NCBI GenBank assembly: GCA_030272585.1
Contig: BSYQ01000003.1
Span: 4,526,001 to 4,590,000, forward strand
Length of the DNA stretch: 64,000 nucleotides
Direction: 5' to 3'
DNA from: Bryopsis sp. KO-2023
Lineage: Eukaryota > Chlorophyta > Ulvophyceae > Bryopsidales > Bryopsidaceae
This document shows, in pieces, positions 1 to 62,178 of this stretch (its first letter is position 1; every line of letters begins with the position of its first letter). Below the pieces are notes generated by a model, which was not told the DNA's origin, did not search any database, and saw only the letters and a program-made list of their open reading frames with translations. The translations under genes and the position numbers were made by a program.

Positions 1-244
1 CACCATGCAGCACACCTTGAGTGATTTTCACCACCTTGCCAACCAAGACGTCGGCGGGGTGGGGTGTGACGATCGTTCTCGCATGGCTGGGCTCCACCAA
101 ACTCCTCAGCGAGGAGGGGACGTACTCAAAGTAACCTTTGGCATCGATCAGAGTAACATCGAAGGTCTTCGATAGAAGTCGCCTGGCGGTGCGCCCAGCA
201 AACCCACCCCCCACGATCACGACCTTTTTCTTGGAATCGGACAT
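1..244 (-). CDS. FSP1/AIFM2-like FAD-dependent NAD(P)H oxidoreductase, 5' part
   Basis: The start codon is at 244-242 on the minus strand and the frame stays open for 81 codons to the window edge, so only the N-terminus is present. Residues 8-17 read VVIVGGGFAG, a dinucleotide-binding GxGxxG loop of the pyridine-nucleotide-disulphide oxidoreductase fold. It is followed by the acidic end of the second beta strand (VTLIDAKGYFEY) and by a P-S-S-L-R-S-L-V-E segment typical of the AIFM2/FSP1 and type-II NADH dehydrogenase group. Family members pass electrons from NAD(P)H to quinones; FSP1 acts at membranes. There is no N-terminal targeting peptide ahead of the Rossmann fold. A type-II NADH dehydrogenase is the alternative. 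The gene faces away from the small membrane-protein gene at 658. Confidence 0.75.
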   Translation of the reverse strand, partial: MSDSKKKVVIVGGGFAGRTARRLLSKTFDVTLIDAKGYFEYVPSSLRSLVEPSHARTIVTPHPADVLVGKVVKITQGVLHG

Positions 245-16804: not shown

Positions 16805-19800
16805 TCACTCGGGGTCGCGCAACTCACGCCACTGCCACGCCTCGGGAATCCTGCCTGAACAAAACCTCCATAACTTTGCAAGAGTCCCCAAGACTGGGTG
16901 GTCTATCAACAATCTGGTGGCCATATTCCGCAAACCCCCTTCCCATCTCAGCATGTACCAAAAAGTCGCGAACATGAAAGCGAAAAAGACGACAAACACG
17001 GCACAAGACACGGTGATCGAAAACGCGTTCGTGGTGTGCTCGTCCATCAGCGCTAGCCCCACGAAAAACACGATAATCGACGCCGTCAAGGACCAGGTTT
17101 CACAGTCGTTCAGAGAATCGTCTCTGTACGGCTTCGCTTTGAGGTGAAGGAAAAGAGCCGTGACCAGAATGAACGCAGTCACCAACCCCTGCAAGTTGGG
17201 TCCCAGACCTCGAGTCCAAATGGCGACCGCCGCTATCAACGCCTTCCTTACCATGATGACCGTCTCCCAATAGTAACAATCAGAAGTGTAGCTGGAGTAG
17301 AGAAAACCGTATGTCCTGCGAAAATTAGCTTCACCGTGTTTGGCTTTTTTCGTGTACAAAATGCAGAAGAGCGCAGTGGGAAAACCCAGCGTTACACCAA
17401 ACAGGAAGGGCAAGCACAGGGAATAAAACAAACGCGCGTGATGGCCGGTGTAGCAGATATAATCCGTGTCTTCCGCCCAATACCTGCTCAAAAACAGCAC
17501 ACAGAAAAACGCTAGCAGAGACTTTGAGAAAAATCAAACGACGAGGGGGGGGGGGGCAACAAAGGGTGTTTTTTCCTACCTTTTCGAGGCGGCGATCCCG
17601 TGAGCCTCTTCATCCTCCACGCTGACGCAATATATTACCTTATAAACGTTCTTGGTGATGGCGGTGTACGAAATAAACAGAACCGCCAAAGTGGTCAGCC
17701 AACACCTCCTTCCGAAACCTTCCCAATGAGCCAGATCCGCCGCCAATGCTCTGAACCTCGCTACACCCCAGAAGGCAATGAATATGAACAGCGCGAAAAA
17801 CGGGAAGAAAAACGTCAGGACCATGCGCGGCAGTATCTTGCCATCCTCGAACAGACAGTCCAAGTTGACGAACTCCACGTCCAGGGGCTCGAAGGTGGTG
17901 CCGATCCATCCTAAGCAACCCCACATGGTTTCGCCGTTTTAAACTGTTGGGTTTCGGGAATTCAGTGGAAAAAAACACTTCTCAGCGGTGGACTGCGCAC
18001 CAGCCAACAGCAGCAACGTCGAAACACTTTTCGTCCATCCCAAATCGATGGTGAGTCCAAGCGCTGTCAGCTGGAGGAAATTGACCAAAATCTGCACAAA
18101 CCAACAAACGAATTTTTTTGAGATGCATCCATCAATAGAACGAAAAACACAAGGCTCAGATTGGGGGACGATAAAGTGTCAATCGTGGTTGCTTGCTATC
18201 TCCTCCACCGACCTTCGTGGCTTCCGTGACATTCTCCCCTGTTTTCCTGCTCATCGCTCTGCTGTGGCGCCTCTTTGGAAGGGCAGCAGCAATTTCCAGC
18301 ATAATCTCTTCGCTTATAGAGCCACTATCAAAGTGATCCAAACTCGCACTCCTACGTATGAGAAAACAACTCACTCCACTCTTCAAACACACGTGCCTGT
18401 CAAAACACACACACGCACGCACGCACACACACCTGCCGTCGGTAAGAACGACCGACTGGTTCCTTCCAGGCACAAGTTCGATTTCATCCATTTCATCCGG
18501 GGAATGGCTGATGCTCTGCTCGCCTTCGGCGGATAGCATGTCCCTTAAGAAGATGCCCACAACGAAAAGAGAAATGAATGTCCCAAGGACGATCCACAAA
18601 TACGTCATTTTCCTTCCTTCCCTGCACTCCTCACACTCCAGGCCATGGACCCTTCCATACCCAGGCGCACAAGACCCACACAGAACGCCGTCAAACCCCT
18701 TCACACACAAACATCTCAACCGATCAAGAGGACAAAGAAACGCTTTCCCAGCCCATCCAGAAACTGGGTGCAAAGAATGGCACCTACTTTGCGGCAGAGC
18801 TGGTAGTCACCCCGAAATGTCAATGTGTGATTTCCCCAGTGGGCCGATTTTGCTTTCTCAGTGAGAGCATCTTCTCGGTTGGGAAAATCGCAAGCCAGGG
18901 GGGACAGGCATTGATGCAATTGAGTCGATCTGGATGTAGAGTGCCAAAATCCAGGTTCGGGGATGACGGTGGCGCCAGAGCCTTCACACATTGCATTTGG
19001 GGGGCAAACTTGACAGCGCGAGTCAGACGGGTTGAAGCTGTACAGTTCTCTAGGGCACAACTGGCACTCCATGCCACCCCGAGTGTTGAGCTCCCCAATC
19101 CTGCATTTCCTGATTTCCACTTTTAGCACCAAATCTTCCACCGCCGCCAATGGAAGGCGCACTTTGAGAGAGTATGGACCAGGGCGTCCCTTCGCCACGG
19201 TCTCGGTAAAGACTGCCACGCCTTCATTGGGCACATCGCTTCTCTGGCCGCTCAGGAGGTCGTCGGCACTCTTCAAATCCACTCTGAGACTGTCTGACCC
19301 TCGCATCATCTGGCCCCACCCATCCATCAGAGTCACATTGAAAGCTGGGAGCGGATCTCCACTTTTGTGACCTGAAATATTCTCCTGAGAAAGCTCTGCT
19401 GATGCCAAAGGTGATGCAAACACTGGACCATACCCATTTCCCCCTTCGATTGAATTGCTGTGCCACCCCGGACATGCTTCTGCGGGGCGATTCCTGCTTT
19501 CCCCATCACACAACACCTCCAAAGCATCCACGGTCGACACATATGCCCCACCTCCGGCGAGTTTTGCTACATTGCCTGTGAGGTTCGTGCTTTTCAGCAC
19601 CACCCCGAACGACTTCAGTCGATTCAGTAACAACAGACCCTCTTCGCAGGTTTGTGCAAAGCGAATCTTCTCCAGATTGTGGAGGACCGGGTTTTTTGTG
19701 ATTGGGTATACTCTTTGGGCGGCTGGGGAACAAGCTGCACTCTTGATTTCAATTTGTTGGTCGAAAAACAGAGCACCTGCAACAACCAGAGTAAAGTAAA

Positions 19801-22799
19801 GTGTAGCTGGATGCAGGTCACCCTCTGCAAAAAGATAGTTCTTCTGCTGAAGCTTTTCAAAACGTTGCCTGCAGGCAATAAATCAGTCAGAACACGAGTT
19901 GTTGTCGAGTAGACAAGGCAACTGGAGAAGCAAATCCCTACCTCCTGAGCCTGCTGCCATGTTCGCCATAAAATTGCACCCTGTGCATTCGACAGCTCCA
20001 AGAGGTGGACTTGGGCCCTTTCTGGTCCTAACCTTAGATATCTTCGCTGAGATAGCACCACCGTTTTCGAACGCCCTGTTTCTGGAAAACTCAGTCCGCT
20101 TGGCTACTATGATCGAATCATCCATGCACACCCCGCCACCATCCCCAGCACTATTCCCCTGAAAGACAACTCTTTCAGCTGAGGAAAGCGACCCATCCAA
20201 TCGAATCGCACCGCCCTGCCCCTTGCTGAGGTTGCCTGAGAACCTGGTGTGTCCAAATGCCACAAAATCCTTGTGTGCGTGAATTGCTCCGCCACTGTCC
20301 CACCCTGTGTTGTCTTGAAACTTGGATTTCACAATCTCCAATGAAGGGGCAGTCAAAACCACGCCTTGGCTGGAAATTCCCCCCACCAAAACTGGGCTTT
20401 GTACGCTTTCCAACGGCTGATGCCCAAGGGTGCAGATTCCACCCCCCCTCAATGCCTTGTTGCCTGTGATGTCCAAATCCTGCCCCCAAAAAGGAAAATG
20501 TGCAATCGTTCTATCCAGGAAAATCGCACCACCATCCAAAGCTGCATTTGCAGTAAACTTTGTTCGGCTGACAACCACCAGAATCTTTCTGCTGAACCCC
20601 GATTGTGGTACTTTCCCATCGTCAATTTTCACAAGCATGCCTCCCCCACGCTCAGCTGCATTCCCATCGAAGGTGGAAGCTTCCACAAGTACCGGGGCCT
20701 GGATCATCATGCCCCCACCCCACCCATTTGAATCCAGGCATTTGTTGTTGTTGAATTTTGACCCTTTCACATGGAACTCCTGCATGATGCAATATTTTAC
20801 TCGTTACAGTACCCATAATATTAAAAGTTTAAAACCAGGGCACAAAATCGATCAAGCAGAAAGTCAGCAAACAAATGCAAACTAGAGTCAACATATCAGA
20901 GAGGTTATTTGGTTGATGCATTCGCCCAGGGGTTTGATGTTAAAATTTGAAACCTGGGGGAATCTGGGATGCACCTGAGAACTCCAGATGGCACCCCCGC
21001 TTTGATTGGCAACATTCTCCACGAACGCGCACCCCACCATATGAACCTTTGCATTCACTTCAGAAAATTCAGCCGACCTGCTGCTTTCCTCAAGGTGTAA
21101 AGTTCCGATTTTTTCGTATAATGGACGAAATCCAGAATCGCTGAGTCTTGATGCTCCCCAGTACCCCTGGATGTACACTGCCCCTCCGTTGCCTGCTGAA
21201 TTGTTGAAAAATGCACAGTTTCTAAACCAAGCTTCGGCCTGCAGGTCAACCCAGATCGTTTCAGAAAAGAAATAACACTGCTTTGGTCGTCATTTTTACT
21301 GATTCATTGGCTTCCTTCAAATAAGTAAACACATATAAACGAGGATATATTGCTGCTGAGATTGTATTTGCAAACACATGGGGAATCAGGGTGGTGACCT
21401 GCAGCACAAGGGTGCTGTATAAATACCTTTGGTTTCAGCCAGCCGATGAAGACAGCACCCCCCAAGAATTGAACGGAGTTCCTCTCAAACGTGCAGTCCG
21501 TAACATTGAGACTCAGCACCTCTGATTCTCTGTGAAAAACAGCAAAAAACATAAATGACAGGGACATCCTACCGGAAACTTTTTCTGTTTTCATCAATTC
21601 ATTTGACAAGAAGAAATTACCTCAAACGAATTGCAGCTCCATACTGCCCTCCACCTGTCACTTCTGTGTATGTATTCTCTTTGAAGGTGCTGTTGGTAAT
21701 TGACACCTAAAACACGCACGAGGGTTCATTCTTCTTAGTCTTCTTATATCAACCCAGGAAATCCATCCCCACAGCATTCAGGAGGCCCACCTTGGTGACA
21801 TTCAACCCTCCAATCTCAATTGCCCCATTCAAATTTCCAAGAAAATGTGCCCTGGATACCTCCACCTCAGAGTCCGAAATCATCAAGGCTCTGCCAGTGT
21901 TGTTCATAAACCTCACGTCGTGGATTTTCAGCAACCCAGCCATGTTATTCACTTTTATTCCAACGGCTCCATTGGACCGAAAACTCAAAGAAGACAGGGT
22001 GACGTTTCTTGAGTTTTCAACATCGATGATCGCTGGCATCTGGCCAGTGCAATCCTCGAATGTAAAATTTGATATCCCAATAGATTGCCCCCTGGAAAAA
22101 AAAAACCCAGCAGTTCTCAGCTTATTGTCCAGCAGCACCTTGGCTCAGGAACTCCTGAGCTGCAGCTATGTATCCATCATGAATGCGATCAGAAACTGAC
22201 GAAATGAAAGTGAGTTTCAAAAAGCAACTCTGGCAGGAAAAAAAGCTAGGGAAATCAACCTGACTTTAAACAGCGGCTCCTGATTGTTCAACAAAGCACA
22301 ATCAAAAATAGATTCCGAATTGCCCGCATTAGCAGAGCCCTCCACAGAAATCGGCTTCGTCAGGATGATCGAATCCTGGGGTTTCAAAACCACATCTCTT
22401 GCAACTCTCAATCGACCTCCCTCAGGAATGCAATCCACCAAACTTTGAATGTTCTGTGATCCAGTCAGGGATGCGTTGTTGATCTGCCAAATCCATGGGT
22501 TCGTTTTCTCCGAGTCCCTCAGGAATTTTGAGCAGCTAAATGTCCCTATCAAGACAACAAGCCATTGTAAATTGGCAAGCAAATTTTTTAATCTGCATTT
22601 ACAGAGGCAGACCACTGAGCACTGGAAGAAACCAAATAAACTGGCCAAGGTATTTTCCAGAGAAACGCCAGCAGGCGAATCATTTCTGAGGAGCGATCTG
22701 TGGAGGTAGATTTTGATCCCAACCTGTCGCTCGGACAGCCAATGCGACCAGCAAAACAAGGTAAAAGACACCCGTTGAACACAGCTTTGCCTTCAACAT
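16805..22799 (-). CDS. Pmp-repeat (beta-helix) polytopic membrane protein, left copy
   Basis: Thirteen minus-strand exons join in phase: 22724-22799, 22260-22545, 21791-22091, 21621-21706, 21427-21529, 20975-21238, 19942-20779, 18788-19776, 18433-18698, 18213-18324, 18001-18091, 17580-17910 and 16805-17483, giving 1473 aa. A signal peptide (about 1-25) precedes a long ectodomain of repeated G-N-x-A...GG(A/G)(I/V) and FxxN units (GNAALDGGAIFL, GNKALRGGGICT, GNSAGDGGGVCM). These resemble the repeats of chlamydial polymorphic outer membrane proteins and imply a right-handed beta-helix. A Cys-rich section follows (MECQLC, CQVCPPNAMC, GVLCGSCAPGYG), then a span near 1012-1033 and about eight more spans to the C-terminus. 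Similar receptor-like architectures occur in algae and oomycetes, without known function. No internal stop was found. Its twin is at 27895-33929. Confidence 0.8.
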
Positions 22800-22803
22800 C
22801 TTC
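16805..22803 (-). repeat. Left arm of ~6-kb inverted duplication
   Basis: The reverse complement of this arm matches 27889-33870 through exons and introns alike. For example, the last intron (17484-17579 against 33100-33193) differs at only about two positions. Similarity starts just before the start codon and stops near the stop codon, so the arm is essentially one gene. The 5' flanks outside the arms are unrelated. Confidence 0.85.
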
Positions 22804-23333
22804 TCAACGCATTACAATACACAATGATCCGAACGTAATTCTGAAAAAAATAGTTTGAGCCAGTGGCGACTGGTGCGAAACTTTGTGTGACCGTGCCCAT
22901 CAGATTTGTGGAGGCCAAGGCCACGTGTGTTCGAATCACTGAACTGGACTTTTTTTAGTTTCGCTAGGGGTTTGTGACGGCGGAACAGAACAGACATCGC
23001 TTCGGAGAAAACAAGCGAGCGCGGTTCTTGAAGATTGGGGTGCGGAGTGGGTGGGTTCGTTGGTGTGGGTTCGAAGTCAGGACAGATCCCCCCCCAGCCG
23101 ACTTTGCATGCAAGGATATTACATCATCTGTATTAAATGTTGCTTCCAGAGCCATTAAATCAATCATCCCCCAGCATTTGTTGCAAGTTGCGACGCATTT
23201 GTTGCAAGTTGCGACACATTTGTCGCACTTTCCCAAAACCTGCTCCGCATCTGTGACGACAATTTCTCGATAGCAGAGGACCTGGAGAAGGAACTTGCCG
23301 ACACGTATTGGTGGTCGAGAGTTTTTCGAGTCG
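22800..23333. promoter_or_regulatory. Divergent region between left Pmp-like gene and NMT
   Basis: This 534-bp stretch separates the start codons of the minus-strand Pmp-like gene and the plus-strand N-myristoyltransferase. It holds a 21-bp tandem repeat at 23175-23226 and an 18-nt word at 23101-23118 that recurs inverted at 27581-27598. Core promoter elements were not recognised. Confidence 0.3.
23175..23226. repeat. 21-bp tandem repeat, about 2.5 units
   Basis: Units at 23175-23195 and 23196-23216 differ only at their last base, and a partial third unit follows to 23226. The core is CATTTGTTGCAAGTTGCGAC. It lies about 110-160 bp before the N-myristoyltransferase start codon. Confidence 0.8.
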
Positions 23334-26300
23334 ATGTCGGACGACAAAGATAAGGAAGCCGGGCCCAGTCGCGAAGAAGAGGGGGAGCCCTCGGACGCGA
23401 GAATTCGGGAGCTGTTTCAGGCTCTGTCGCTGCAAGCGTCGCCCCCCGTGAATCAAAAAAGGGAGAAGAAAGACCACTATATGTTCTGGAGCTCCCAACC
23501 CGTCACTCAATTCGATGACTCTGGAGCGGAGGTGGGGAGGAGGGACGGGATCTCGTTTCTGTTGCCCCGTCTTGATCGACCTTGGTCTTTCGTTCACTGC
23601 GGATTGTGTCGCCCTTGATCGCAGGGTGTGCAGGAAGACGGTCCGATCGACAGGCCGAAGACGGTGGCTGACGTCCGACAGGAACCGCTCAACCTACCGA
23701 ATGGGTAGGTTCAATCTCAAAGAAGGAAAATTACAGTGCCAAATTTGGATATCTGACAGGGATGTGCATCAATTATTCAATTTTTTTTAGTTTTTCTTAA
23801 TTATTATTATTGTTGTTTTTTGGGTGGGGTTGCATCAAAAAAACAAGTATTCTTTTTGTCAACTGGTCACTGTGTAATTGGGCGATATGCCGCACATGTA
23901 CATAAATTGCTTTGATGAGATCCAATGATTCGCAAGATTTACAGAATCTTTGATTTTCACCCACATGCATTTTTTTGTCACCTTCGGAAATCCAAGCTTT
24001 GTCACATTCGGTGTCGCCGAACGGAAAACATGATGCAACATGTTTTAATTATTATTTTTTTTCTGCGCACAGATATGAATGGTGCACCTGCGACGTCAGC
24101 GATGAAGAGACCATCGCAGAGGTAACGAAAACACGAAGCAGCATCTTTATTTTTCTTTTCTTTTTCTTCGTTGCGTGAAAAAATGCTTGTTTTGCTCAGC
24201 TCACAATCCGCTTGTTGCTTTTTTATTTTTGCTTGATTTTTTTAAAAGGGACGGGGGGGGGGGGGGGTTGAGGATGGGCAAGGACCGACTTTGCATGCTT
24301 TTTCCTCTCAGGTTTACAAGCTTTTGACGAATAACTATGTGGAAGATGGTGATAACATGTTCCGGTAAACCCATCAAAATAAACAAGATGTCTCTTCAAT
24401 TCATGGGCATTTCGTTGTGATTTTTTTTTTTTTTTTGTGCAAAGTGGTCAAGATGAACATTTTTGCATAAGAATAGCATGCCATCAGGTGTTACTTTTTT
24501 CTCTCTTATTGTTGGAATATTGTGAGCAAACGATATGGAATTAATTATATTAAATCATCCTATTATATTAGTACATCGTATGCACAATAACGGAAGAAGA
24601 AAATCCTTCGCTCGTTGAATTCTTCAAAATTTTGAAATCTATTCAAAAATCAGCAAGATGCTGCATTTTTTTCCTTTTTTTTTGGAGGTTGGGCGAAAAA
24701 CAAAACACAGATTCAGAACACGGTAGATAGACACAGTGGATAGACGAGAATGTGCATAGGGACATTGTGGTTTTGCGTAGGTTCGATTACTCTGCTGGTT
24801 TTTTGAAGTGGGCATTGATGCCACCAGGCTACCGACAAGAATGGTTGGTCGGAGTTCGAGTGGTGGCTTCCAAAAAACTGGTCGGCTTCATCACGGCCAT
24901 CCCGGCGTCCATACGTGTTAAACAGCAGATCGTCAGCATGGTGGAAATCAACTTTTTGTGTGTGCACAAGAAATTGCGATCGAAACGGCTGGCTCCAGTA
25001 TTGATTAAGGTAGGTGTCGAACCCCGTAGAGTCGTAGTGTTGTTTTGCTTGACAGCTTTTTTTGGATGAAATCTAGATCCTTGCTTATGTCAGACAGATA
25101 GACACCGCTTTGCGGCAGATTCGAGTGGGGCTGTGACGAGATTCGAATTTCAGATGAGATCGGAAAAGGAGGTTGCTGAAGGTGTCGTGTTTTGTTTGTT
25201 TGTTTTTTCCCTAGGAAATCACTCGAAGAGTAAATTTGACGAACATTTGGCAAGCTGCATACACTGCTGGAGTCGTTCTTCCGACACCCGTTGCAACATG
25301 CAGGTATTGGCACCGCTCATTGAATCCAAAGAAGCTCATCGAGGTTGGATTTTCAAAATTGGGGGTAAGAGAATCGTGTGTCAGACAGGGGCAAGCGTGT
25401 GTGTATGTCTGGTACGTGTTATGTGTTTGTGAACAATGTATCATTGTTTTTTTTGTGGGGGGGGCGAACATTTTTTGTTTGTTTCTGTTGAGATTCCCCA
25501 AATAGAAACCTCGGAGTTAAAAAAATAATAAATCTCAAAAATTCCGGGTGAAATTCCTAAATTGGGAATGCTGCTCAAACGGAATGAAGTAGCACGTTGG
25601 CAGTGATCTAACGTTTCTGCATTTGGCTTCAGAATTTGATGACAATGGCCCGAACAGTGAAACTGTATCGACTGCCCAAAGACCCCAAAACTCCAGGCTT
25701 CAGAGAGATGTTGGCATCTGATTCTCCGCGAGTGTTGGAGCTGCTCAATCAATATCTACTCAAGTACAAGCTGGCACCAGTTTTCACTCTGGAAGAAATC
25801 GAACACTGGTGAGGGGGACCTGAATGAAAATTGAAATCACACACCCAGTTAGTTTTGGGAAATTAAAAAAAAACGTTTTAATATTTTTTTATGGAAATCA
25901 TGCCAGAGCAGAAAACCAGCTGCTGTTGTGTTGTTCTTCTGAAAAAAAAGGGGGGGGGGATGTGATACTGATCTTGATTTCGGGCTGTGAATGCATGCAG
26001 GTTGGTCCCCCGAGATGATGTGGTGAATGCGTACGTCGTGGAAAATCACGATGGCGAGATAACCGACCTGGTGTCGTTCTATTCGCTGCCCTCCAGCATT
26101 CTGGGCAACCCCAAACACTCCAGCCTCAAGGCCGCATACATGTACTATACCGTTCCAGGGGCGACCTCGATCAACCAACTGATGACTGATGCTCTCATAA
26201 TGGCGAAATCGTGCGGTTTCGACGTGTACAACGCCCTCGACATTTTGCAGAACAACGAATTTTTAAGGGATCTCAAGTTCGGGGAAGGGGATGGCTACTT

Positions 26301-26373
26301 ACAATACTACCTGTACAATTGGCGGGTTGTGGAAAAAATGCGCTCGGAAGAAGTGGGGCTCGTTTTGTTGTAG
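23334..26373 (+). CDS. NMT: Glycylpeptide N-tetradecanoyltransferase (N-myristoyltransferase)
   Basis: Eight exons join in phase: 23334-23531, 23625-23704, 24073-24121, 24312-24364, 24781-25009, 25215-25364, 25633-25808 and 26001-26373, giving 435 aa, the usual eukaryotic NMT length. Recognisable blocks are [10 protein letters not shown] near the N-terminus, [75 protein letters not shown] and [11 protein letters not shown]. The protein ends EEVGLVLL, with the hydrophobic terminus whose alpha-carboxylate serves as catalytic base in this family. It transfers myristate from myristoyl-CoA to N-terminal glycines of cytosolic proteins. The Lys/acid-rich first 40 residues are the variable N-terminus. 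It occupies the single-copy spacer between the two inverted Pmp-like genes. Exon 1 was anchored on the first ATG in an open frame. Confidence 0.93.
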
Positions 26374-27894
26374 CATCTTTTTTTTTTGCCTTGATGGTGG
26401 AACGATTTTCTGGGGGTTTCTGGGGGTGTTCTTTCGTTGTTTTTTTTTTAGCTTTATTTTTCTGGGTTTCTCTTTTCTCCTGTAAAGCAGAGGGGGTTGG
26501 CTGGGCAGCTAAGAGTCTTGGCAGGGGCACACATGTAGAGGCACCAATGCAGACAGCTGGCGGATGTAGTTCGATCTGTAATTGTGGGTTTTTTTCTGTT
26601 GGTTCTGCTGAACTTGTTTGCTTCTCGGCATAACGTCATCCACATGATCCATTACTTGGAAGGAAGCCTGTCCAGCAGATATTTTTGACAGTTTCCTGAT
26701 ATCAGAATGTGAAAGAAAGGTGATTTACGATGGGTATTCCCAACCTTCAATGGACCTGTGGTGAACAGCGAAAGGAGCTGTAGGATGGCCCCGTGCTGGA
26801 ATGCGAATTGAACTTCTTCAAAATGTATCCTGATTTGAAGGCACATTGGGGATGGGCACAATCAAAAAAATGGGTGGAGGGGGCCCTGAAATGTTCTGTT
26901 TGATTTTATTTTATGATTCTTGGAGCAAAACCATGGAAGAGCAACATTTGAAAGCCTACAGGGTAAAAAAACTAGAATGGAAGATGTGGGTGACCCGAAT
27001 AATAATAAGTATATGTCGATGGAATTTGATTGAGAAAGCAAATCTGTCCAGAGTTGGTGTCTTCTGGAATCGATTGCAGAGGATGAAATCGATTGATTCT
27101 CAGTCAGTATAAAGTGGGGATGATGAGCTTTGTTTCGAGGATTAGGGCTTCTTATCAAATCAACATTTGAGAGTGCCCCATTGAGGGGGTGGGGTCATCA
27201 TGTTCTCAAGCCTTCCCTCCCAATTGCAAGGGACTGCTTTGTTTTGAATATTGTAAAACCCATTGGGATCGAATGGGCTGTTTAGTGAGACATGTGGATC
27301 ACGCAAGTCAAAGCGCCGCCTGGCTGAGGGATGTTAGTCGAGTTTTGAGTTTGTGTATTTAGGAAGTGAGTGGGGAACAACTTTGACTCTCTGTAAAAAA
27401 CTGTGGTTTTTTATACTGTGGTTTCAACAATATGAAAGAAAGAAAACTGTGGACTACTAGCAGTACTGCTGAAGGTTGGTTGAAACAGTGCATGCTTTAG
27501 CTTTGCTTATGAGAAAGCCGACACAGCCTCAATAAACAAACTTAAGTGAAAAGCGCAAGCACTGATGCTGTTCGATCCATTATCCTTGCATGCAAAGTAA
27601 GTTAAATCGACACAACTTGAGCGAGAAGTGCTTGTTCGATGCTGTTTGATCCAACATCCTTGCTTGCAAAGCACCGCCGACCACTCCCACTCCACACCTC
27701 GTCCTTCAAGAATTCGCTTGTTTCTTTGAAGTGATGTCTGGGATTTTCCGCCATCACGAAGCCCCAGCGACACCTGAAAAAGTCGAGCTCGGTGATTCGA
27801 ACAGCATGGGGTTCGCCTCTGTGCATTCGACGCGCCGATTGGCACTCTCCAGCCGCCGCTGGCTGAATTTTCTTTTCAGAATTGTTTTGGGACG
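26374..27894. other. Intergenic region between NMT and right Pmp-like gene
   Basis: About 1.5 kb without a recognisable exon. It contains an imperfect tandem duplication of roughly 75 bp at about 27555-27675 and presumably the promoter of the right Pmp-like gene. It is not similar to the 5' flank of the left copy apart from the short word noted at 27581. Confidence 0.3.
27555..27675. repeat. Imperfect tandem duplication (~75-bp spacing)
   Basis: GATGCTGTTCGATCCATTAT at about 27563 and GATGCTGTTTGATCCAACAT at about 27638 are followed by TCCTTGCATGCAAAG and TCCTTGCTTGCAAAG respectively. The two copies are adjacent and lie upstream of the right Pmp-like gene. Confidence 0.6.
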
Positions 27895-30800
27895 ATGATG
27901 CAGGCAAAGCTGTGTTCAACGGGTGTCTTTTACCTTGTTTTGCTGGTCGCATTGGCTGTCCGAGCGACAGGTTGAGATCAAAATCCACCTCCACAGATCG
28001 CTCCTCAGAAATGATTCGCCTGCTGGCGTCTCTCTGGAAAATACCTTGTCCAGTTGATTTGGTTTCTTCCAGCGCTCAGTGATCTGCCTCTGTAAATGCA
28101 GCTCTCAGTCCAGCTTTAAAAAAAATTGCTGGCCAATTTACAATGGCTTGTTGTCTTGATAGGGACATTTAGCTGCTCAAAATTTCTGAGGGAATCGTCT
28201 GACAAAACGAACCCATGGATTTGGCAGATCAACAATGCATCCCTGACTGGATCACAGAACATTCAAAGTTTGGTGGATTGCATTCCTGAGGGAGGTCGAT
28301 TGAGAGTTGCAAGAGATGTGGTTTTGAAACCCCAGGATTCGATCATCCTGATGAAGCCGATTTCTGTGGAGGGCTCTGCCGATGCGGGCGATTCGGAATC
28401 CATTTTTGATTGTGCTTTGTTGAACAACCACGAGCCGCTGTTCAAAGTCAGGTTGAGTTCCCTGGCTTTTTTTCCTGCCCAGTTTACTTTGTGAAACTCA
28501 CTTTCATTTCGTCAGTTTCTGATCGCATTCATGATGGATAAATAGCTGCAGCTCAAGAATTTCCGAGCCAAGGTGCTGCTGGACAATAAGCTGAGAACTG
28601 CTGCTATTTTTTTTTTCAGGGGGCAATCTATTGGGATATCAAATTTTACATTCAAGGATTGCACCGGCCAGATGCCAGCAATCATCGATGTGGAAAACTC
28701 AAGAAACGTCACCCTGTCTTCTTTGAGTTTTCGGTCCAATGGAGCCGTTGGAATAAATGTGAACATGGCCGGGTTGCTGCAAATCCACGATGTGAGGTTC
28801 GAGAACAACACTGGCAGAGCCTTGATGATTTCGGACTCTGAGGTGGAGGTATCCAGGGCACATTTTCTTGGAAATTTGAATGGGGCAATTGAGATTGGAG
28901 GGTTGAATGTCACCAAGGTGGGCCTCCTGAATGCTGTGGGGATGGATTTCCTGGGTTGATATAAGAAGACTAAGAAGAATTATGCCTCGTGCGTTTTTTA
29001 GGTGTCAATTACCAACAGCACCTTCAAAGAGAATACATATACCGAAGTGACAGGTGGAGGGCAGTATGGAGCTGCAATCCATTTGAGGTGATTTTTTCTT
29101 GTTAACTGAATTGATGAAAACAGAAAAAGGTTCTGGTAGGATGTCCTTGTCATTTTTTTTCTGCTGTTTTTCACAGAGAATCAGAGGTGCTGAACCTCGA
29201 TGTTTCGGACTGCACGTTTGAGAGGAACTCCGTTCGATTCTTGGGGGGTGCTGTCTTCATCGGCTGGCTGAAACCAAAGGTATCCATACAGTGTCCTTTG
29301 TGCTGACTCCCCATATGTTGATTCTCAGCAGCAATATATCCTTGTTTAGATGTGTTCCATGACAAATTCCATGCTGCATTATTTGTCAATTCAGTCAATC
29401 AGTAAAAATGACGACCGAAGCAGTGTTGATTTTTTGCTGAAATGCTCACAGGCCGAAGCTTGGTTTAGAAACTGCACATTTTTCAACAATTCGGCCGGTA
29501 ATGGAGGGGCAGTGTACATCCAGGGATACTGGGGACAATCAAAACGAAGCGATTCTGAAACTCATCCATTATACAAGCAAATGGGAAATCTGCATCTTGA
29601 GGAAAGCAGAAGGGTGGCCAAAATTTCAAATTATGAAAAGAACGCAAAGGTTCATATGGTGGGGTGCACGTTCGTGGAGAATGTTGCTAATCAAAGCGGG
29701 GGTGCTATCTGGAGTTCTCAGGTGAATCCCAGACTCCCTCAAATTTCCAGTTTTGACATCATACCCCTGGACAAACGCATCAACCAAATATCCTCTCTCT
29801 ATTTGTTGATTTAAGTTTGTTTTTGTTTGCTGACTTTCTGCTTGATTGATTATGTGCCCTGGTTTTAACTGAAAGTCAAAGCATCCCCATTTCATAACTG
29901 GTACTGTAACACATTATGCAGGAGCTCCATGTGAAAGGGTCAAAATTCAGCAACAACAGATGCCTGGATTCATATGGGTGGGGTGGGGGTATGATGATCC
30001 AAGCCCCGGTACTCGTGGAAGCTTCCACCTTCCACGCGAATGCAGCTGAGCGTGGGGGAGGCATGATCGTGAAAATTGACGATGGAGAAGTACCACAATC
30101 AGGCTTCAGCAGAAAGACTCTAGTCGTTGTCAGCCGAACAAATTTCACTGGAAATGCAGCTTTGGATGGTGGTGCTATTTTTCTGGATAGAACAATTGCA
30201 CATTTTCCTTTTTGGGGGCAGGATTTGGACATCACAGGCAACAAGGCATTGAGGGGAGGTGGAATCTGCACCCTTGGGCATCATCCATTGGGAAGCATAC
30301 AATGCCCAGTTTTGGTGGTGGGGCTTTCCAGCCAAGGCGTGGTTTTGGCTGCCCCTTCACTGGAGATTGTGAAATCCAAGTTTCAAGACAACACAGGGTG
30401 GGACAGTGGCGGAGCAATTCACGCACACAAGGATTTTGTGGCATTTGGACACACCAGGTTCTCAGGCAACCTCAGCAAGGGGCAGGGCGGTGCGATTCGA
30501 TTGGATGGGTCGCTTTCCTCACTTGAAACAGTTGTCTTTCAAGGGAATAGTGCTGGAGATGGTGGAGGGGTGTGCATGGATGATTCGATCATGGTGGCAA
30601 AGCGAAGTGAATTTTCCAGAAACAGGGCGTTCACAGGAAACGGTGGTGCTATCTCAGCCAAGATATCTAAGGTTAGGACCAGAAAGAACCCACGCCCACC
30701 TCTTGGAGCTGTCGAATGCACAGTGTGCAATTTCACGGCGAACACGGCCGCAGGCTCAGGAGGTAGGGGTTTGCTTCTCCAGTTGCCATGTCCAGTCGGC

Positions 30801-33800
30801 AACTGAACTTGCTGTTTTGCTTAACGTATTGTACCCATACAGGCCACGTATTTTACTAGAATACGTTTCTGGCAACCCTGGTTGCTCTGATTGGTGCAGG
30901 TGCTATTTTTTTCGACCAACTCGTCCACAAGATTGAGACCGCAGCTTGTTCCCCAGCCACCCCTAAAGTGTACTCAATCACAAAAATTGGAATCTTCCAC
31001 AATCTGGAGAGCATTCGATCTGCACGAATGTGCGAAAAGGGCCAGTTGTTACGGAATCGACTGAAGCTGTTCAGGGTGGTGCTGAAAAACCCAAACTTCA
31101 TAGGCAACAGTGCAAAACTTGCCGGAGGTGGCGTTTTTGTGTCCACTGTGGATGCTCTGGAGCTGTTGTGTGATTGGAAAAAAAGGAATCGCCCCGTAGA
31201 AGCATGTCCAGGGTGGCACAGTAATTCAATCGAAGGGGGAAATGGGTATGGTCCAGTGTTTGCATCACCTTTGGCATCAGCAGAGCTTTCTCAGGAGAAT
31301 ATTTCTGGTCACAAAAGTGGAGATCCGCTCCCAGCTTTCAATGTGACTCTGATGGATGGGTGGGGCCAGATGATGCGAGGGTCAGACAGTCTCAGAGTGG
31401 ATTTGAAGAGTGCCGACGACCTCCTGAGCGGCCAGAGAAGCGATGTGCCCAAGGAAGGCGTGGCAGTCTTTACCGGGACCGTGGCGAAGGGACGCCCTGG
31501 TCCATACTCTCTCAAAGTTCGCCTCCCACCATCGGCGGCGGTGGAAGATTTGGAGCTAAAAGTGGAAATCAGGAAATGCAGGATCGGGGAGCTCGATACT
31601 GGTGGTGGGATGGAGTGTCAGTTGTGCTCTGGGAAACAGTACAGCTTCAACCCGTCTGATTCGCACTGCCAAGTTTGCCCCCCGAATGCGATATGTGAAG
31701 GCTCTGGCGCCACCGTCATCCCCAAACCTGGATTTTGGCACTCTACGTCCAGATCGACTCGATTGCATCAATGCCTGTCCCCCACGGCTTGCGAATTTCC
31801 CAACCGGGAAGATGCTCTCACCGAGAAAGCAAAATTGGCCCATTGGGGAAATCACACGTTGACACATCAGGATGACTACCAGCTCTGCCGCAAAGTAGGT
31901 GCCATTCTTTGCACCCAGTTTCTGGATGGGCTGGGAAAGCGTTTCTTTGTCCTCTTGATCGGTTGAGATGTTTGCAAACACACAATATTGTGTGTGAAGG
32001 GGTTTGACGGCGTTCTGTGTGGGTCTTGTGCACCTGGGCATGGAAGGGTCCATGGCATGGAGTGTGAGGAGTGCAGGGAAGGAAGGAAAATGACGTATTT
32101 TTGGATCGTACTTGGGACGTTCATTTCTCTTTTCGTTGTCGGCATCTTCTTGAGGGACATGCTATCCGCCGAAGGCGAGCAGAGCACCAGCCATTCCCAG
32201 AGTGAAAACGAACTTGTGCCATTGACAGGCCGATCGGTGGTTCGTATCGACAGCAGGTGTGGGTGTGTGTGTGTGAAGGAAAAAGTGTTTGTTCTGTTGC
32301 CGAGCACGTGTGCTTTAAGATTGGAGTGTGGTGTAGAAGTGCGAGTCGAGATGGAGGCTCTGTGAGCGATGAGATTGTGCTGGAAATCGATGCTGACCTT
32401 CCCAAGGAGCGCCACAGAAGTGCGATCAGCAGGAAAGCAGGGGAAAATGTTACGGAAGCCACGAAGGTCGGTGGAGGAGATAGCAAGCTTGCTTAAGGAA
32501 CCACGATTGGCAGTTCATTCCCTTCTGAGCTTCCAAAGTTTCTTGAACATCTCAAAATGAACAAAAATCGTTTGTTGGGTTGTGCAGATTTTGGTCAATT
32601 TCCTCCAGCTGACAGCTCTTGGACTCACCATCGATTTGGGATGGACGAAAAGTGTTTCGACGTTGCTGCTGTTGGCTGGTGCGCAGTCCACCGCTGAGAA
32701 GTGTTTTTTTCCACTGAATTCCCGAAACCCAACAGTTTAAAACGGCGAAACCATGTGGGGTTGCTTAGGATGGATCGGCACCACCTTCGAGCCCCTGGAC
32801 GTGGAGTTCGTCAACTTAGACTGTCTGTTCGAGGATGGCAAGATACTGCCGCGCATGGTCCTGACGTTTTTCTTCCCGTTTTTCGCGCTCTTCATATTCA
32901 TTGCCTTCTGGGCTGTCGCGAGGTTCAGAGCATTGGCGGCGGATCTGGCTCATTGGGAAGGTTTCGGGAGGAGGTGTTGGCTGACCACTTTGGCGGTTCT
33001 GTTCATTTCGTACACCGCCATCACCAAGAACGTTTATAAGGTAATATATTGCGTCAGCGTGGAGGATGAAGAGGCTCACGGGATCGCCGCCTCGAAAAGG
33101 TAGGAAAAAACACCCTTTGTTGCCCCCCCCCCTCGTCGTTTGATTTTTCTCAAAGTCTCTGTTAGCGTTTTTCTGTGTGCTGTTTTTGAGCAGGTATTGG
33201 GCGGAAGACACGGATTATATCTGCTACACCGGCCATCACGCGCGTTTGTTTTATTCCCTGTGCTTGCCTTTCCTGTTTGGTGTAACGCTGGGTTTTCCCA
33301 CTGCGCTCTTCTGCATCCTGTACACGAAAAAGACCAAACACGGTGAAGCGAGTTTTCGCAGGACATACGGTTTTCTCTACTCGAGCTACACCCCCGCCTG
33401 TTACTATTGGGAGACGGTCATCATGGTAAGGAAGGCGTTGATAGCTGCGGTCGCCATTTGGACTCGAGGTCTGGGACCCAACTTGCAGGGCTTGGTGACT
33501 GCAATCATTCTTGTCACGGCTCTTTTCCTTCACCTCAGAGCAAAGCCGTACACAGACGATTCTCTGAACAACTGTGAAAGCTGGTCCTTGACGGCGTCCT
33601 TGACCATGTTTTTGCTTGGGCTGGTGCTGATGAACAAGAACACAACGAACGCGCTTTCGATCACCGTGTCCTGTACCGTGTTTGTCGTTTTTTTCGGCTT
33701 CGTGCTCGTGACTTTCTGGTACATGGCCAGATGGGAAGGGGGTTTGCGGAACATGGCCACCAGATTGTTGATAGACCACCCAGTCTTGGGGACTCTTGCA

Positions 33801-33870
33801 AAGTTATGGAGGTTTTGTTCAGGTAGGATTCCCGAGGAGTGGCGGCGGGTGCGTTGCGCGATGGGGAGGA
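27889..33870 (+). repeat. Right arm of ~6-kb inverted duplication
   Basis: Matches the reverse complement of 16805-22803 across all 13 exons and 12 introns. Most length differences between arms in coding exons are multiples of three, as expected of selection on both copies. Similarity decays at about 33830-33870, so the two proteins have different C-terminal tails. Confidence 0.85.
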
Positions 33871-33929
33871 GTATTTCAGGTTTCAAAAACCGAGTTTTTG
33901 CGTTTTTGTGTTGGTTCCACAGAGATTAG
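27895..33929 (+). CDS. Pmp-repeat (beta-helix) polytopic membrane protein, right copy
   Basis: Thirteen exons join in phase: 27895-27970, 28163-28451, 28620-28917, 29002-29087, 29177-29279, 29452-29721, 29922-30762, 30900-31894, 32000-32256, 32337-32466, 32588-32678, 32769-33099 and 33194-33929, giving 1500 aa. Architecture equals the left copy: signal peptide, GG(A/G)I and FxxN repeats, Cys-rich modules, then about nine membrane spans. Differences include small in-frame indels and a more changed exon 6. The exon 10 acceptor moved about 18 bp upstream, adding RSASRD, because the base pattern at the left copy's site is no longer AG. The C-terminus is longer, since the left copy stops soon after SGRIPEAW while this one runs on about 25 residues. 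An extra intron near 33822-33879 is possible. No disabling mutation was seen, so both copies look functional. Function is unknown. Confidence 0.8.
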
Positions 33930-34899
33930 AAGCAGAGCAGTGGAAAAGTGGAGCTTGTTTGCATTCGTGAATCCTTTCTGATTGGGGGTTCGATGCGGAT
34001 GCCAAATCAAATAATTATATTCGCTCCATGAAGCGAATATAAACTTGATCAACTTATGGAATTAGAAGACTGTTTTCACAACAGTTTGCAGGGAACTTTC
34101 TTAGAAGATTTGCTTTTTGGACACAATGTATAGTATGTATTCAATGAAGGTAGCACTTGGTCATCCACAAGGAAACAGGCCATGATGTGGACAGGAAAAC
34201 CGCATCCAATAAGTATCTGATACGTTCACCCATTGCGCAGTGAGTGGCGTTTCGATGAAGGAATAAACTTTGACGGAGCTTGCTTAAGCAAGCAATCGTT
34301 CGTTTTTGTTCGGCACCTAAGCAGAGTATGAATTTGTTGCATTGGAATCTTCAGCCCAACAGATTTTTCTTGGTTGTAACTACATTTTTTGTGATTATGT
34401 TGGTTGGCTGGTTGATTTTTTGTTGGTTGTAATGTATTAGAAAGTTTATAAACGGCTTCTATCGATGCACACGCGTTAAGTCGATTTTGTTTGAGGGATA
34501 TGTTGGCACGTTGAATGTACCGCCAGTAGCTCTGGCATTATGGGGGGTGATGGCCCCTTTTTGCTATATGGTAATTGAAAATGTAATTTATGTTGAAGTT
34601 TATGTAATTGATTGATTGATGTATCGTCAGTAAGCTGAAGATGAAAGCAGTCGATTCCATATCATTTTAATGATGATGAATTGTTCTAGAAAGTGGCAAA
34701 ACAAAATATTCTGGAAAAACCCTGTCTGGATTTTCTCAGAGACAATCTGGAAGAAGTCATTTTTCAACGATATTCCAGTCTTCAGCCATCCAATTTTCAA
34801 AGCAGCAAACATTAATTCGATGCATCTTTCTTTTATTTTTCCGTCCAATGTTGAGATAAACGGGTTGTCTTGTTGCTTAACTGGAGCTCAGACAAAGAC
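33930..34899. other. Intergenic region with a perfect hairpin
   Basis: No coding exon recognised. It contains the 11-bp-stem hairpin at 34015-34042. The rest is AT-rich unique-looking sequence. Confidence 0.3.
34015..34042. other. Perfect 11-bp inverted repeat with 6-nt loop
   Basis: TTATATTCGCT at 34015-34025 pairs exactly with AGCGAATATAA at 34032-34042 around the loop CCATGA. It begins 86 bp after the stop codon of the right Pmp-like gene. A transcript-end structure or a small mobile-element remnant are both possible. Confidence 0.6.
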
Positions 34900-48197: not shown

Positions 48198-50376
48198 ATG
48201 ATACGCACCAAGGGAAAAACGATGTCGTTCGATTTGGACAACGCGAAGCACTTTCACAGCTTCTCTCTGTCGGAGGACGGAACTTTTTCCACGGGAATAT
48301 CTGGCGAGACGCCCAGGTCCAGCATATCCGCGGGTTTGGACAGTTCTGCGTTCGGCAGCGGCAGCTCGGTTTTGTCGCAATGGGAGCCCCCGACGGAAGC
48401 GGAGCTGGCCAACCTCTACCCCGATAAGGCCGCCCTGTCGCAGCTTTTGGAGGAGTCTGCTAACTGCGAAGGAAACCTGGTACGTTTATGTGACGACGCG
48501 CAAGCTGCCAGTCCGTGGGATGATACTCGCGTCGTGAATAATCGCTTCGACGACCCGTCCAGTTGTCCGCAAGAGTCTCCGATGTTTCGCGGCGATATTG
48601 GAAGTCGAGCGATTTTCTGGGGGTCGAAACCCAGACGTTTGAAAAGTTTCTGTCGGTCGGGAGCAGCGAGCGACGCAGTCGGCCTTGTCTGCTGCCGAGA
48701 ACCCCCATCCTCGTCGTGCTAAACGAGTATTTATGGCACCGGGAGGTTCGTAACTGTTACGGGTGGGTTATTTTACGCATTGTGCTTGGTGTGTGGTTAG
48801 GAGGAGTTGGAGGCAGTCATCAGCAAGCTCCAGGCGATTTACCTCTACAGACAGGCGAGTCGTCTTGAAATTCTCGAGAATGTTTTCGAAACGACCGTCC
48901 CAAGCCCTACTCCGTGTCTTCCTTTTCTGTGCACACCAGCAATTTCCTTCCGCGTTTTGCAATTTCCCTCCCCCAAAAAAAACGCACGTACCCTCGACAA
49001 TTAGCGTAACTCATCAGAATCTTTCCTCCTTTTTTGTTGCAGGGTCTCAAGGCGCTTGCTGAAGAGAGGCTGGGAGCTGCGTTGGGGGGCAACGGTGGGA
49101 GCTCGACCCCTGCCAGTGGTGCATGCTTGTCATCAAGCTTTGGAGGAGAGGGCAGCGGGGATTTCAGGTCTTTGTTGATGAACAGCTCCCAGAAAGGCTC
49201 CCCTGCTCCGGTTTCTTCCTACCGGGCTGACCCCCCTCCCACTGCTTTTCCGGGGTCGACCAACTCCATCTGGAGAATGAATTCTGCTCCTGTTAGCCCC
49301 CAACTCACCCACACTGTTACGCCACAACAAAGTACCCAGCCCCCCCCTGCGGCGCAATATCCAGGGGTGGTGTCCACTCAAGACCTTGCTGCTTTGGCCC
49401 GTCTGCAGTATCAGCTGTATCAAGATACGCTCAGGAGGTATAAGAAGAGGTGAGGGTCTGGATGGGATCCCCAGATTTTCTTACATTTCCCTTTTCAAAA
49501 TAATTTGCGTTGATAAAAATATGGACCTGTCGGTGCATGCAGCAACTGTTTTGCCAAACGAAACTTGTTTGATGTGTGGAAAAACAGTTTTGGACCAAAA
49601 ACGAGTAAAGGGGAAATATCCTGCCGAAACAATGAAACCCATTTCTCAATTGTGTTTTTTTCAACCAATCACATTTTCGAGAATCTACAAAAATCCATGC
49701 TTTTCCGTTTCAACTCATAAACGTATTGGTTCTGCTCGCTTGGGTCACACTTTTTTTTTTTTTAAACCTTGTTTTTCTCCTTTTTGTTTTTTTAATAAAA
49801 TCAGTCGAAATGGCAGAGGTCAGCGTTACCAGCGTCGCAAGCCCAGGCGCAACAATAGTGCTCCTGTGATGCTGCGCGCTCCCCAATGGGCGGATTCGTC
49901 CTGGCATCCCATGACTGCCGTCTTGGCAAAGGGAGATGGTGCTGGAACTGGCACAGGGGTGTTCATCCCTGGGGCCAAAAGTGACAGGGACTGCGTGGGT
50001 CAACCCACCCAGAAATCGATGGACACGGGCATGTTACTGCAAGGTGGGAGATTCACTGCTGGGCAACCCGCTTTTGCTCTTTGTCTGAGGGGGGGGGGGG
50101 AAGAATAATTAGAATTAAAAAAAAATACAAACATGTATATATATGTATATACGTATGTATATATTGTTCAAGGCACAATATGTTGGAGAATGAGTTTTTG
50201 GCCATCTCTATATTTTCAAGGAAAATAGAAATCCTCAAAACTTCTGAAGTGAAATCTGTTCTACTCGTGTCATTTCCCACAAAAAGAATCGACTTTTTTA
50301 AATCTTTTTTTTTTTCTCTGCAGCACCTGGGAAAATGGCAACGCCAGCAGATCTACCAGAGGAGTGGTTGTATTAG
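48198..50376 (+). CDS. Plant-like protein with basic patch and C-terminal GTGVFIP...LPEEWLY motifs
   Basis: Five exons join in phase: 48198-48479, 48801-48854, 49043-49449, 49805-50043 and 50324-50376, giving 344 aa. The N-terminal third is Ser-rich and acidic. Exon 2 with the start of exon 3 forms a short helical, coiled-coil-like segment (EELEAVISKLQAIYLYRQGLKALAEERL). A low-complexity Gly/Ser/Pro/Gln region follows, then a Q-rich helix (ALARLQYQLYQDTLRRYKKR) and a very basic patch (GRGQRYQRRKPRRNN). The end carries GTGVFIPG and LPEEWLY, motifs I associate with land-plant proteins of unknown function. The basic patch suggests nucleic-acid binding or a nuclear signal. The donor of exon 2 appears to be GC (CAG then GCGAGT), the one non-GT donor in this window. 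The ATG at 48222 is an alternative start. Confidence 0.7.
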
Positions 50377-53300
50377 CTACCTGACTAACTACTTTTTTTT
50401 TTATAACGGGGAAAAAAGACAAAAAAAAAAGAAAGGAAAAACTCACAAAAAAAAAAAGAAAAAAAATTGACATGGAATGGAAAATGGGTGGTCGGAGTAG
50501 ATTTTGGTGGGATGATTTTTATCGATCAATTTCATCCCGTTTGGCAGGCGACATCAATGATGACCTGTAAAAATGAACCTCGCGCAGCAAAAAAAAAAAG
50601 ATGAAAGATGGGGGGAGGGGGTAAAAAAAGAGAGAGAAAAAATTAGCCGGTAATTAGGATAAAAAAAAAAGTAAAAAAAAAAACAAAAAGAGGGGGGTGG
50701 AAGGGAAAATTGATCTCGTGTGAGTTGGATGCATACGGGCTGTGTGCGAGAGGAAACCTCAACTCGTGGATTCTTTTTGGATGATGTGTGTGGGTTTGAT
50801 TGGAGTCTTTTCTCTTGATTTTTCTGTATTATGCGGTGTGGATTCTTATAAAAAGCATCCTTTTTTTTGTTTGGTTGGGAGAAGGTGAGGAGGTTGCATT
50901 TTTTTTGAGGGTGGTGTTTTAATCGACCTCGTCTACCAAGTATAAAACCGGCACGCATCTGATTCGACGTGAAAAAAAAAGGAGAGAAACCTTTTAGAGA
51001 GGGGGGGGGGGGTTGTTCGATTGGTTGGAGGGGTGGGATCGTTTGAAAAGGAAAAAGAGGAGTTGTTTTTTTATTTGGGGTGGGGGGGAGGTGTATGTTG
51101 AAAAGAGAGGGAGAGATGGAGAGAGAAAAAAAAAGGATTGAACAAAAAAAAGACATAGGTGGTGAGGAAGAAAAAAAAAGAGGTGGAGGAGGGAAATTGC
51201 TTTTTTAGGAAGGAAAAAAAAAAATGAAAAGGCTCGCACATCAGATGTGCAATACAAGTCCATCTCTCTCTCTGTTTTTCTTTTTTTTTCTTTTTAATCA
51301 CCTCCGCTCCCTCTTTTTTTCCTTCTTCATGTGTTCCCCCCTTCCTCCCTTCTTTTTTTTTTGTCCCTTTGCTTCTTTCGAATGTGGTGGATTGCTTCTC
51401 GCAATTCTATGACCACTGTTTTTTTTTTGTTTCTCTTTTTTTTTTTTGGGGGGGGGGGAAGCATAATGGATTAATTTTTTGAAATAGAGGTGAAAGGGAG
51501 TGTTGTGGAGGAGGAGAATTCATGAACAAAGTGGCAAATGCGAGAAGCAAGTTCAGGAGAAACGGGAAGAAAAGAAAAGAAAGAGCTCGAATCCCACCCT
51601 GTGCATGAAATTTCGGAGGGGGTGGGAAGGGGGGCAGGTGATTTCAAGGGGGAGGGGGTTCTTTGGTTGAGGTTTTCGACGTATTTCAAAGAAATTAAAT
51701 ATATCATCCAGTGCGTATTGTGATGGGGGAGGGGTGGGGTGGTAAGGAAGGGAGAGAAAAACCATAAAGAAAAGGAGAAGTTTGGGGGGATTGATTTGGG
51801 GTTCTGATATGAAAAAAAAAAAAAAAGACAATAAGGAGTTGCAGGTTCAGGATTTGACAACAGTCGCTGGACATGCTTTGATACAGGGATGTGTAGTAGT
51901 AGTCGCTTTATTTGGGGTAAGACAGTTTTTTGCGGGTTAATGATCAAGGGGATTTTGGGAGGGGGGGGTTATAAAAAACAAGATAGGGAAAACAAAAATT
52001 TAGAAAAGATTGCAGTTTCTGTATCGAATCACCTTTTTTTTTTTTTTTTTCGGTTCGCATGCGGTTTTTCATCTCTATTTTTCTTCAGCTTATGCGTTCT
52101 TTTCCTTTTTCTTTTTTTTTTGCAGTCCGTTTTAGTTATAGCGAGAGTCCAGGTGATTCCTACGTTGACGATTCTTTCCTTTTTTTTTTCGTTCCCTTTT
52201 TTTGAAACCTCCCGGAATTATTTTCTCTTGATCAATGCTCGACAGCATCAAAAATAATAGGCCGGATTTCTAGCGTTTTTACTGATAAATTTTTTTTTTC
52301 CTTTTTCTTTTTTTTGGGGGTGGGGGGGAAAGGGGTTCTGGGAATATGAAGTTACTCTCAAAGTGGATGAAGGGACGAGAGAAAGAGAGAGAGAGAGAAA
52401 AAGAAAAAAAAAGAAAAAACACAAAAAAAACACATGCAGAGCATAAATTTAAGGAAAATGTGTCTTTGAAGTGTGGGTGACAGAGAGAAAGAAATCCGGG
52501 AAATCTATTTTTAGATCAGTTCAAGAATCGATATGGAAGATATGTATTTGAATGAGAGAGGGACTTGCGGATTTTCTGCATTCAATGATGGATATGTTTT
52601 TTTTTTTGCTGCTGGCGGGGAGGATATTATTAGGGTGGCGGGGACGTGAAGTTAAGGAAAAAATATATATGTATATGTTTTTGATGTTCACTTGGAAGAG
52701 CATAAGTGTAAAAAAAAAATCCCCCTCATACCACCACCACCACCATCCCTCTGTTTTTTCCCCCCACTGTGTGGAATATTAAAGGAGGTGGGTGTTAGAA
52801 ACAGTTTGGGGTAGGGGTGGTGGGGGTTGGAAAAGAGAGTGGAGAGGGTGGTACGGACAAATGGAAAAGAAAAGGAAGTAAATTATTTTTCTCTTCTTTC
52901 GTGGGCATCGTTTTTTTTTTTGTTTGGCTTTTTCTTTTTTTTCTCTTGTTTTTTTGGTTTTTTTCAATTTACACAACTGATTATCCTAGAATAAAGGTTC
53001 ATTTGGAAGGGTCTGTCTGGTGTGTCAGACATGAAGGAGGGGATTGGGTTTTTTTTTGGGAATTCGTATATAGACAAAGAAGGTTAAAAAAAGGATTGGA
53101 AGGAGAGAGAAAAAAAAAGAGTATTTGGGCAGAGAGGAAATTTGGAAGGGGGAAAAGTGAGCAAGACTGGGTTTGGGCAATGAGCAGTTTGAAAAAAAAA
53201 GAAAAAGAGAAAAAAACACCTACCTGAGATTGCGGTTTAGAATTCCTTGGGCAATTGGGTCGTATAATTATGATTTGAAACAAAACAACAACAAAGGCAC

Positions 53301-61867: not shown

Positions 61868-62178
61868 ACCTATCCTTGTATTTGATCGTCAACAACTTCC
61901 ACACTCGAAACGGAAAGAAGCCTGAAACAGCACTAGCGGACCACGGTTCTCAGTTTTTTTTTTTTTTCTGGGACCACAAGCACGGGTCAAAAGTCAAGGA
62001 CGTCAGCGGCTGAATATAGTCGTCGCAAGCGCTTGTCAGACCGCGCTCCTTCCCCAAATATGATGAACCGCCCCTTGTCCCAAAAAATACCTCGCGCAGT
62101 GCCGCGAATTCGTGCTCCCTTTCACCCACCAGTTTTTTCACCCAACATTCTGAACATGTTCTACGACGTGCAATCGAA

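Follow-up and report, generated by a model that had tools for sequence, protein, structure and literature searches.

Patchy divergence between two inverted copies of a PMP beta-helix/TRP-like membrane-protein gene around N-myristoyltransferase in Bryopsis

Introduction

Inverted duplicated sequences are familiar from the human FLNA/EMD inversion, and inverted duplicates have also been reported in C. elegans. In the human inversion HsInv0209, according to the passages of the source that describe it, 7-kb arms with 94% identity that carry KRTAP5-10/-11 mediate the inversion, and the layout includes a 782-bp stretch at 99.9% (PMC3961182). The Bryopsis locus described here lies in a window of 64,000 nucleotides (the whole stretch of DNA that was analysed). 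On the features given in those passages, it has in common with HsInv0209 a pair of 6-7-kb inverted arms with a whole gene copy in each and a very-high-identity patch set against a less similar background. It differs in its gene family and in the presence, within the spacer, of a gene for N-myristoyltransferase (NMT), an essential enzyme that attaches lipid, and whereas the HsInv0209 segment has been demonstrated to flip, the Bryopsis pair is known from one assembly and in one orientation. The locus is therefore a known kind of duplication, ordinary in kind and a tidy example of it.

Two protein systems are also comparable. Chlamydial Pmp proteins, for which the beta-helix motifs GGA(I/L/V) and FxxN are given in the portion of PMC10715098 that treats them, share with the window proteins PF02415 repeats well above cut-off as well as GGA(I/L/V) and FxxN-like motifs. 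Unlike chlamydial Pmp, the window proteins are encoded by a nuclear gene with 12 introns and have a multi-transmembrane (multi-TM) C-terminus, and no autotransporter barrel was listed for the whole left protein. Their likeness to TRP and TRP-like channels (PF06011) consists of a weak match across the C-terminal TM region, which lies below the Pfam cut-off, and any channel function is putative.

Two Inverted Arms Carry One Complete Gene Each

Comparison of the window with itself by BLASTN gave a single off-diagonal match, 27672-33861 to 23065-16815, inverted and 86.8% identical over 6,360 columns, confirming the inverted duplication around NMT that had been proposed from the sequence-only reading. 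In a repeat scan of the window the arms appear as 16 inverted blocks, and the same scan gave no direct repeat family.

16815-23065, minus strand: left arm of the inverted duplication (BLASTN 86.8% to 27672-33861, inverted)
27672-33861, plus strand: right arm of the inverted duplication (BLASTN 86.8% to the left arm)
16805-22799, minus strand: left gene, 13 exons, 1,496 aa, hand-built predicted model
Left exons 1-7, minus strand: 22799-22724, 22545-22265, 22138-21791, 21706-21621, 21529-21427, 21238-20975, 20779-19942
Left exons 8-13, minus strand: 19776-18788, 18698-18433, 18351-18213, 18091-18001, 17910-17580, 17483-16805
27895-33929, plus strand: right gene, 13 exons, 1,514 aa, hand-built predicted model
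Right exons 1-7, plus strand: 27895-27970, 28163-28446, 28573-28917, 29002-29087, 29177-29279, 29452-29721, 29922-30762
Right exons 8-13, plus strand: 30900-31894, 32000-32256, 32337-32466, 32588-32678, 32769-33099, 33194-33929

The two arms are in inverted orientation, each with a whole gene copy, and thus form an inverted paralogue pair. We aligned the arms and then assembled spliced models by hand. The models bear out the earlier description of one complete 13-exon gene per arm, reading outward, and the limits given there, 16805 and 33929, proved to be the outer stop codons of the two genes; the term "giant" is too strong for membrane proteins of 1.5 kaa. In both models all borders are GT-AG and intron phases are equal, and every exon is open along its full length in both arms, with identical phases fitting both. 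A check for stop codons in either copy found none internal, although the intactness of both genes is partly by construction because splice sites were selected to preserve the frame. For example, left exon 3 takes a downstream acceptor, since the upstream AG would bring in a TGA. The terminal stretch of the right copy differs from that of the left owing to a 1-base indel near the stop.

Both Copies Are under Purifying Selection

Between the coding exons of the two copies we measured a dS of 0.167 and a dN of 0.063, giving a dN/dS of 0.37 (bootstrap 0.30-0.46), and approximately 14.6 stops are expected on one neutral lineage from substitutions alone. Coding indels away from the stop are all multiples of 3 (8/8), compared to 4/18 in introns (p = 3e-4); this count covers interior indels only, leaving the 1-base indel near the stop outside it. 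Both copies are constrained by purifying selection, and the earlier statements that most coding-exon indels keep the frame and that both copies are under selection, the latter to be examined by dN/dS, withstood these analyses.

Divergence Between the Copies Is Patchy

Introns had been described as nearly as similar as exons, which is false on average: they differ at 220 of 1,414 sites, compared to 361 of 4,461 aligned coding sites, or approximately twice the exon divergence. Individual introns vary widely around this average. Three are near-identical between the arms (intron 8, 0/89; intron 11, 0/90; intron 12, 1/94; together 1/273), and four are strongly divergent (intron 5, 40/155; intron 6, 47/195; intron 7, 48/134; intron 10, 33/111; together 168/595), with highly significant heterogeneity among the 12 introns (chi2 = 154.6, p = 2e-27). 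Across the 2,048 intron and fourfold sites the longest difference-free run is 120 sites, compared to a null mean of 38.7 and a maximum of 84 in 10,000 shuffles, and a 3-state divergence model is better than a one-state model by 179 AIC units. Exact runs of 200, 178, 118, 106, and 99 bp span exon-intron borders, among them the following.

17862-18061, minus strand (= 32618-32817): 200-bp exact run, candidate conversion tract, in exon 11, intron 11, and exon 12
21728-21905, minus strand (= 28803-28980): 178-bp exact run, exon 3 into intron 3
17557-17674, minus strand (= 33005-33122): 118-bp exact run, exon 12 into intron 12
18711-18809, minus strand (= 31873-31971): 99-bp exact run, exon 8 into intron 8

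Homogenisation is therefore patchy and reaches non-coding sequence, but clustering of the fourfold sites alone (82/634 differing) is not significant by any of three statistics (p = 0.36, 0.06, and 0.26), so the case for conversion leans mainly on introns.

We propose that the gene, which belongs to a large family of PMP beta-helix/TRP-like membrane proteins, gained a second copy on the far side of NMT through a local inverted segmental duplication, and that both copies remained functional under purifying selection. Gene conversion would later have transferred short stretches between the arms on more than one occasion, so that near-identical tracts are now interspersed with near-saturated ones. 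We assign a probability of roughly 80% to this reading, in which the inverted duplication is older, gene conversion has acted repeatedly and in patches, and both copies are retained under constraint; the conversion part draws on one assembly and on gene models chosen to keep frame. The arms, the open gene models, the constraint, and the patchiness are observed, and from them we infer gene conversion as the cause of the patches, together with its timing; constraint on particular introns could mimic its effect.

The latter point belongs to the strongest competing explanation, a single recent duplication without conversion, in which uneven constraint or local mutation rate across introns and exons generates the patchiness. 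The lack of significant clustering at fourfold sites alone fits such a scenario, as does the finding of exact runs inside exons too. We consider it unlikely, since intron differences range from none at all in introns 8 and 11 to 48/134 in intron 7, and since a fragment of the left gene found elsewhere in the genome is already 7-12% diverged, making the identity of introns 8 and 11 younger and the split of the intron-6 ends earlier.

A Captured Fragment on Another Contig Acts as an Outside Clock

DNA searches covering the left gene returned, beside the two arms, only two matches of at least 90 bp, both on one other contig (C4).

C4:553443-553605: 163 bp, 93%, antisense in a trypsin-like protease intron (L041)
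C4:518546-518706: 161 bp, 92%, antisense in the other copy of the same protease gene (L042)
20685-20847, minus strand: source of the 163-bp C4 fragment, intron 6 end plus the first 95 bp of exon 7

Each fragment covers the last part of intron 6 and runs 93-95 bp into exon 7, and the host trypsin-like gene is itself duplicated. At the 7 left/right differences within the 95 exon bases, each C4 copy carries the left-gene base at 6 and the right-gene base at 1. In the intron part the fragments differ from the left gene at 8/68 and 6/68 sites and the right gene is hardly alignable there, suggesting that the split of the arms at intron 6 predates the departure of the fragment. Introns 8 and 11 together show 0/179 differences between the arms, significantly fewer than the C4 fragment intron sites (Fisher p = 2e-5), which suggests that these two introns became identical between the arms after the fragment had left. 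This timing assumes similar neutral rates. As a result, of the two options offered earlier, recent duplication or continued gene conversion, the second gains support from the intron patchiness and the C4 clock, whereas a simple recent duplication is unsupported because near-saturated introns coexist with identical ones. At this locus the homogenisation of two inverted paralogues can be followed cleanly, tract by tract, as a natural record with an outside clock on another contig.

We also considered the C4 fragment as a case of intron gain and rejected this, as the fragment inserted into an intron that was already present. In many related protease exons the match to the protease query stops at about residue 46-49, indicating that the protease intron most likely begins before the fragment and that approximately 11 residues of the query are probably intron. 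Trypsin-like exons form a very large cluster at ~0.5-2.6 Mb of C4 (at least 159 matches, 150 of 230 candidates having been scored); only 19 of the trypsin-like exon matches listed lie on other contigs.

The Spacer Contains an Intact NMT Gene and an LTR-like Element

The left-gene ATG and the right-gene ATG are 5.1 kb apart, and the non-homologous spacer measures 4.6 kb.

23334-26373, plus strand: N-myristoyltransferase gene, 8 exons, 435 aa, intact, in the spacer (profile and chain matches)
27252-27429, no strand assigned: solo-LTR-like element, 178 bp, TG...CA ends with ATAT on both sides, in the spacer and outside both arms

The spacer does contain a whole NMT gene, as had been stated. Residues 23-434 of its product align to the NMT1 chain 9i2d, which we take to be human (E = 2e-150), identifying a full-length NMT; profile matches are at 8e-51 for PF02799 and 6.5e-36 for PF01233, and no NCBIfam match was listed. 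In the 91.09-Mb, 28-contig assembly both of the two PF01233 matches fall at this gene and none elsewhere. NMT is arranged head to head with the left gene, 535 bp separating the two start codons, and the right gene starts 1.5 kb beyond the NMT stop. The palindrome TTGCATGCAA occurs at 23104-23113 and 27586-27595, one upstream of each membrane-protein gene and nowhere else in the window (2 observed compared to 0.25 expected; 3 of 100 shuffles reach 2).

The 178-bp element sits between NMT and the right arm. Its TG/CA ends, ATAT flanks, and the six same-strand pairs of copies 5.5-6.8 kb apart elsewhere point to a solo LTR as its most likely identity. Among the 39 non-self matches listed (40 of 50 candidates scored), 38 are at 91-99% and one at 90%, with 23 of 39 at 95% or more. 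The element looks recent and says nothing on the origin of the arms.

Exact runs of up to 200 bp in inverted arms make flipping of the spacer possible in principle, and human inverted duplications of similar layout do flip, as far as the relevant passages of PMC3961182 describe them. Hence, a second alternative is that the arms recombine and that the NMT spacer is present in both orientations as an invertible segment. We regard this as highly improbable, given one assembly with one orientation and an average identity of 86.8%, which is low next to the 782-bp stretch at 99.9% in the human example (PMC3961182, same passages). Were flipping frequent, which we would call a long shot, the gene at the 535-bp divergent upstream region would alternate between two surface-protein variants. 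That would be a surface-gene switch in a eukaryote, with an essential housekeeping gene located on the invertible segment. If flipping were demonstrated, a pair of surface-protein genes would be linked to the region upstream of an essential gene. An assembly or haplotype artefact that displays a single gene twice is very unlikely as judged from the assembly itself, since the arms differ by 13%, have unlike outer flanks, and both lie within one 8.2-Mb contig, and since DNA searches of the genome turned up a full copy only at these two arms.

Protein Domains Suggest a Surface Adhesin or Sensor

The encoded protein has a hydrophobic N-terminus and a PMP/beta-helix ectodomain, followed by a Cys-rich stretch and a multi-TM region with a sub-threshold TRP-like match. 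The chlamydial PMP repeat profile PF02415 (cut-off 20.6 bits) scores 55.1 bits for left exon 7, 59.1 bits for right exon 7, and 45.9 bits for the whole left protein, which also matches PF13229 (Beta_helix) at 49.7 bits, above the cut-off of 25.9. The Cys-rich stretch matches Ephrin_rec_like below cut-off. Over the last-exon TM region of the two copies, PF06011 gave E-values of 4e-6 and 3e-5 (26.5 and 23.5 bits, compared to a cut-off of 28.5), and it was weakly matched, each time below cut-off, by three of four other family members; no protein that we tried reached the cut-off. Neither PF06011 nor a C-terminal autotransporter barrel was listed when the whole left protein was scanned at E = 0.01. 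Simple hydropathy of the left copy shows a single hydrophobic stretch at the N-terminus and, beyond it, eight TM-like peaks. No solved relative of exon 13 was found by sequence at E = 1, and mean AlphaFold pLDDT is 42 for exon 13 and 50 for exon 7, models that were set aside. Judged from its domains, the protein most likely serves at the cell surface as an adhesin or sensor, with its beta-helix ectodomain joined to a TRP-like membrane domain.

The Copies Belong to a Large Gene Family

With exons 12 and 13 of the left copy as query, 102 exon-level genome matches were obtained, which we merged by hand into ~94 loci in the 91-Mb genome. The window copies are 86-99% identical to this query, and the next matches reach at most 44%, with values of 37% (by score) and 41% given for the next best; by this sequence measure the left and right genes are sister copies and each other's closest relatives. 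On contig C6, 47 TRP-like family loci lie within 2.6 Mb (0.22-2.78 Mb), on both strands. The host genome carries very large surface-protein-like families. A light-harvesting protein encoded at C1:4.60 Mb is, by eye, about 95% identical to 9k7v chain LhcbS and next matches green-type CP26 chains, pointing to an alga with a plastid of the green type.

The inverted-pair arrangement recurs in this genome, alongside direct pairs. Four further inverted pairs, selected by eye from match lists and so giving no rate, comprise three light-harvesting pairs (L037, L038, and L033/L034) and one TRP-family pair on C8 (91.3% over 3,277 columns, matches ~22 kb apart). Direct pairs include L018/L020 at 91.7% and others, from a family comparison of the plus strand only, and among C6 family neighbours less than 30 kb apart 11/23 are on the same strand and 12/23 on opposite strands. 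On these grounds we dropped the idea of inverted pairs as a genome-wide rule.

Elsewhere in the window, which has no tRNA genes or Rfam matches, low G+C content (0.40 and 0.37) accompanies strong GC skew (0.37 and 0.32) at positions 50001-54000. A 40-50-bp dispersed repeat lies downstream of the right gene at 34530-34579, with at least 39 other genome matches at 81-97%. Long open frames match ABHD18 at 56725-57921 on the minus strand (E = 3e-46) and WD40 repeats at 62020-63546 on the plus strand.
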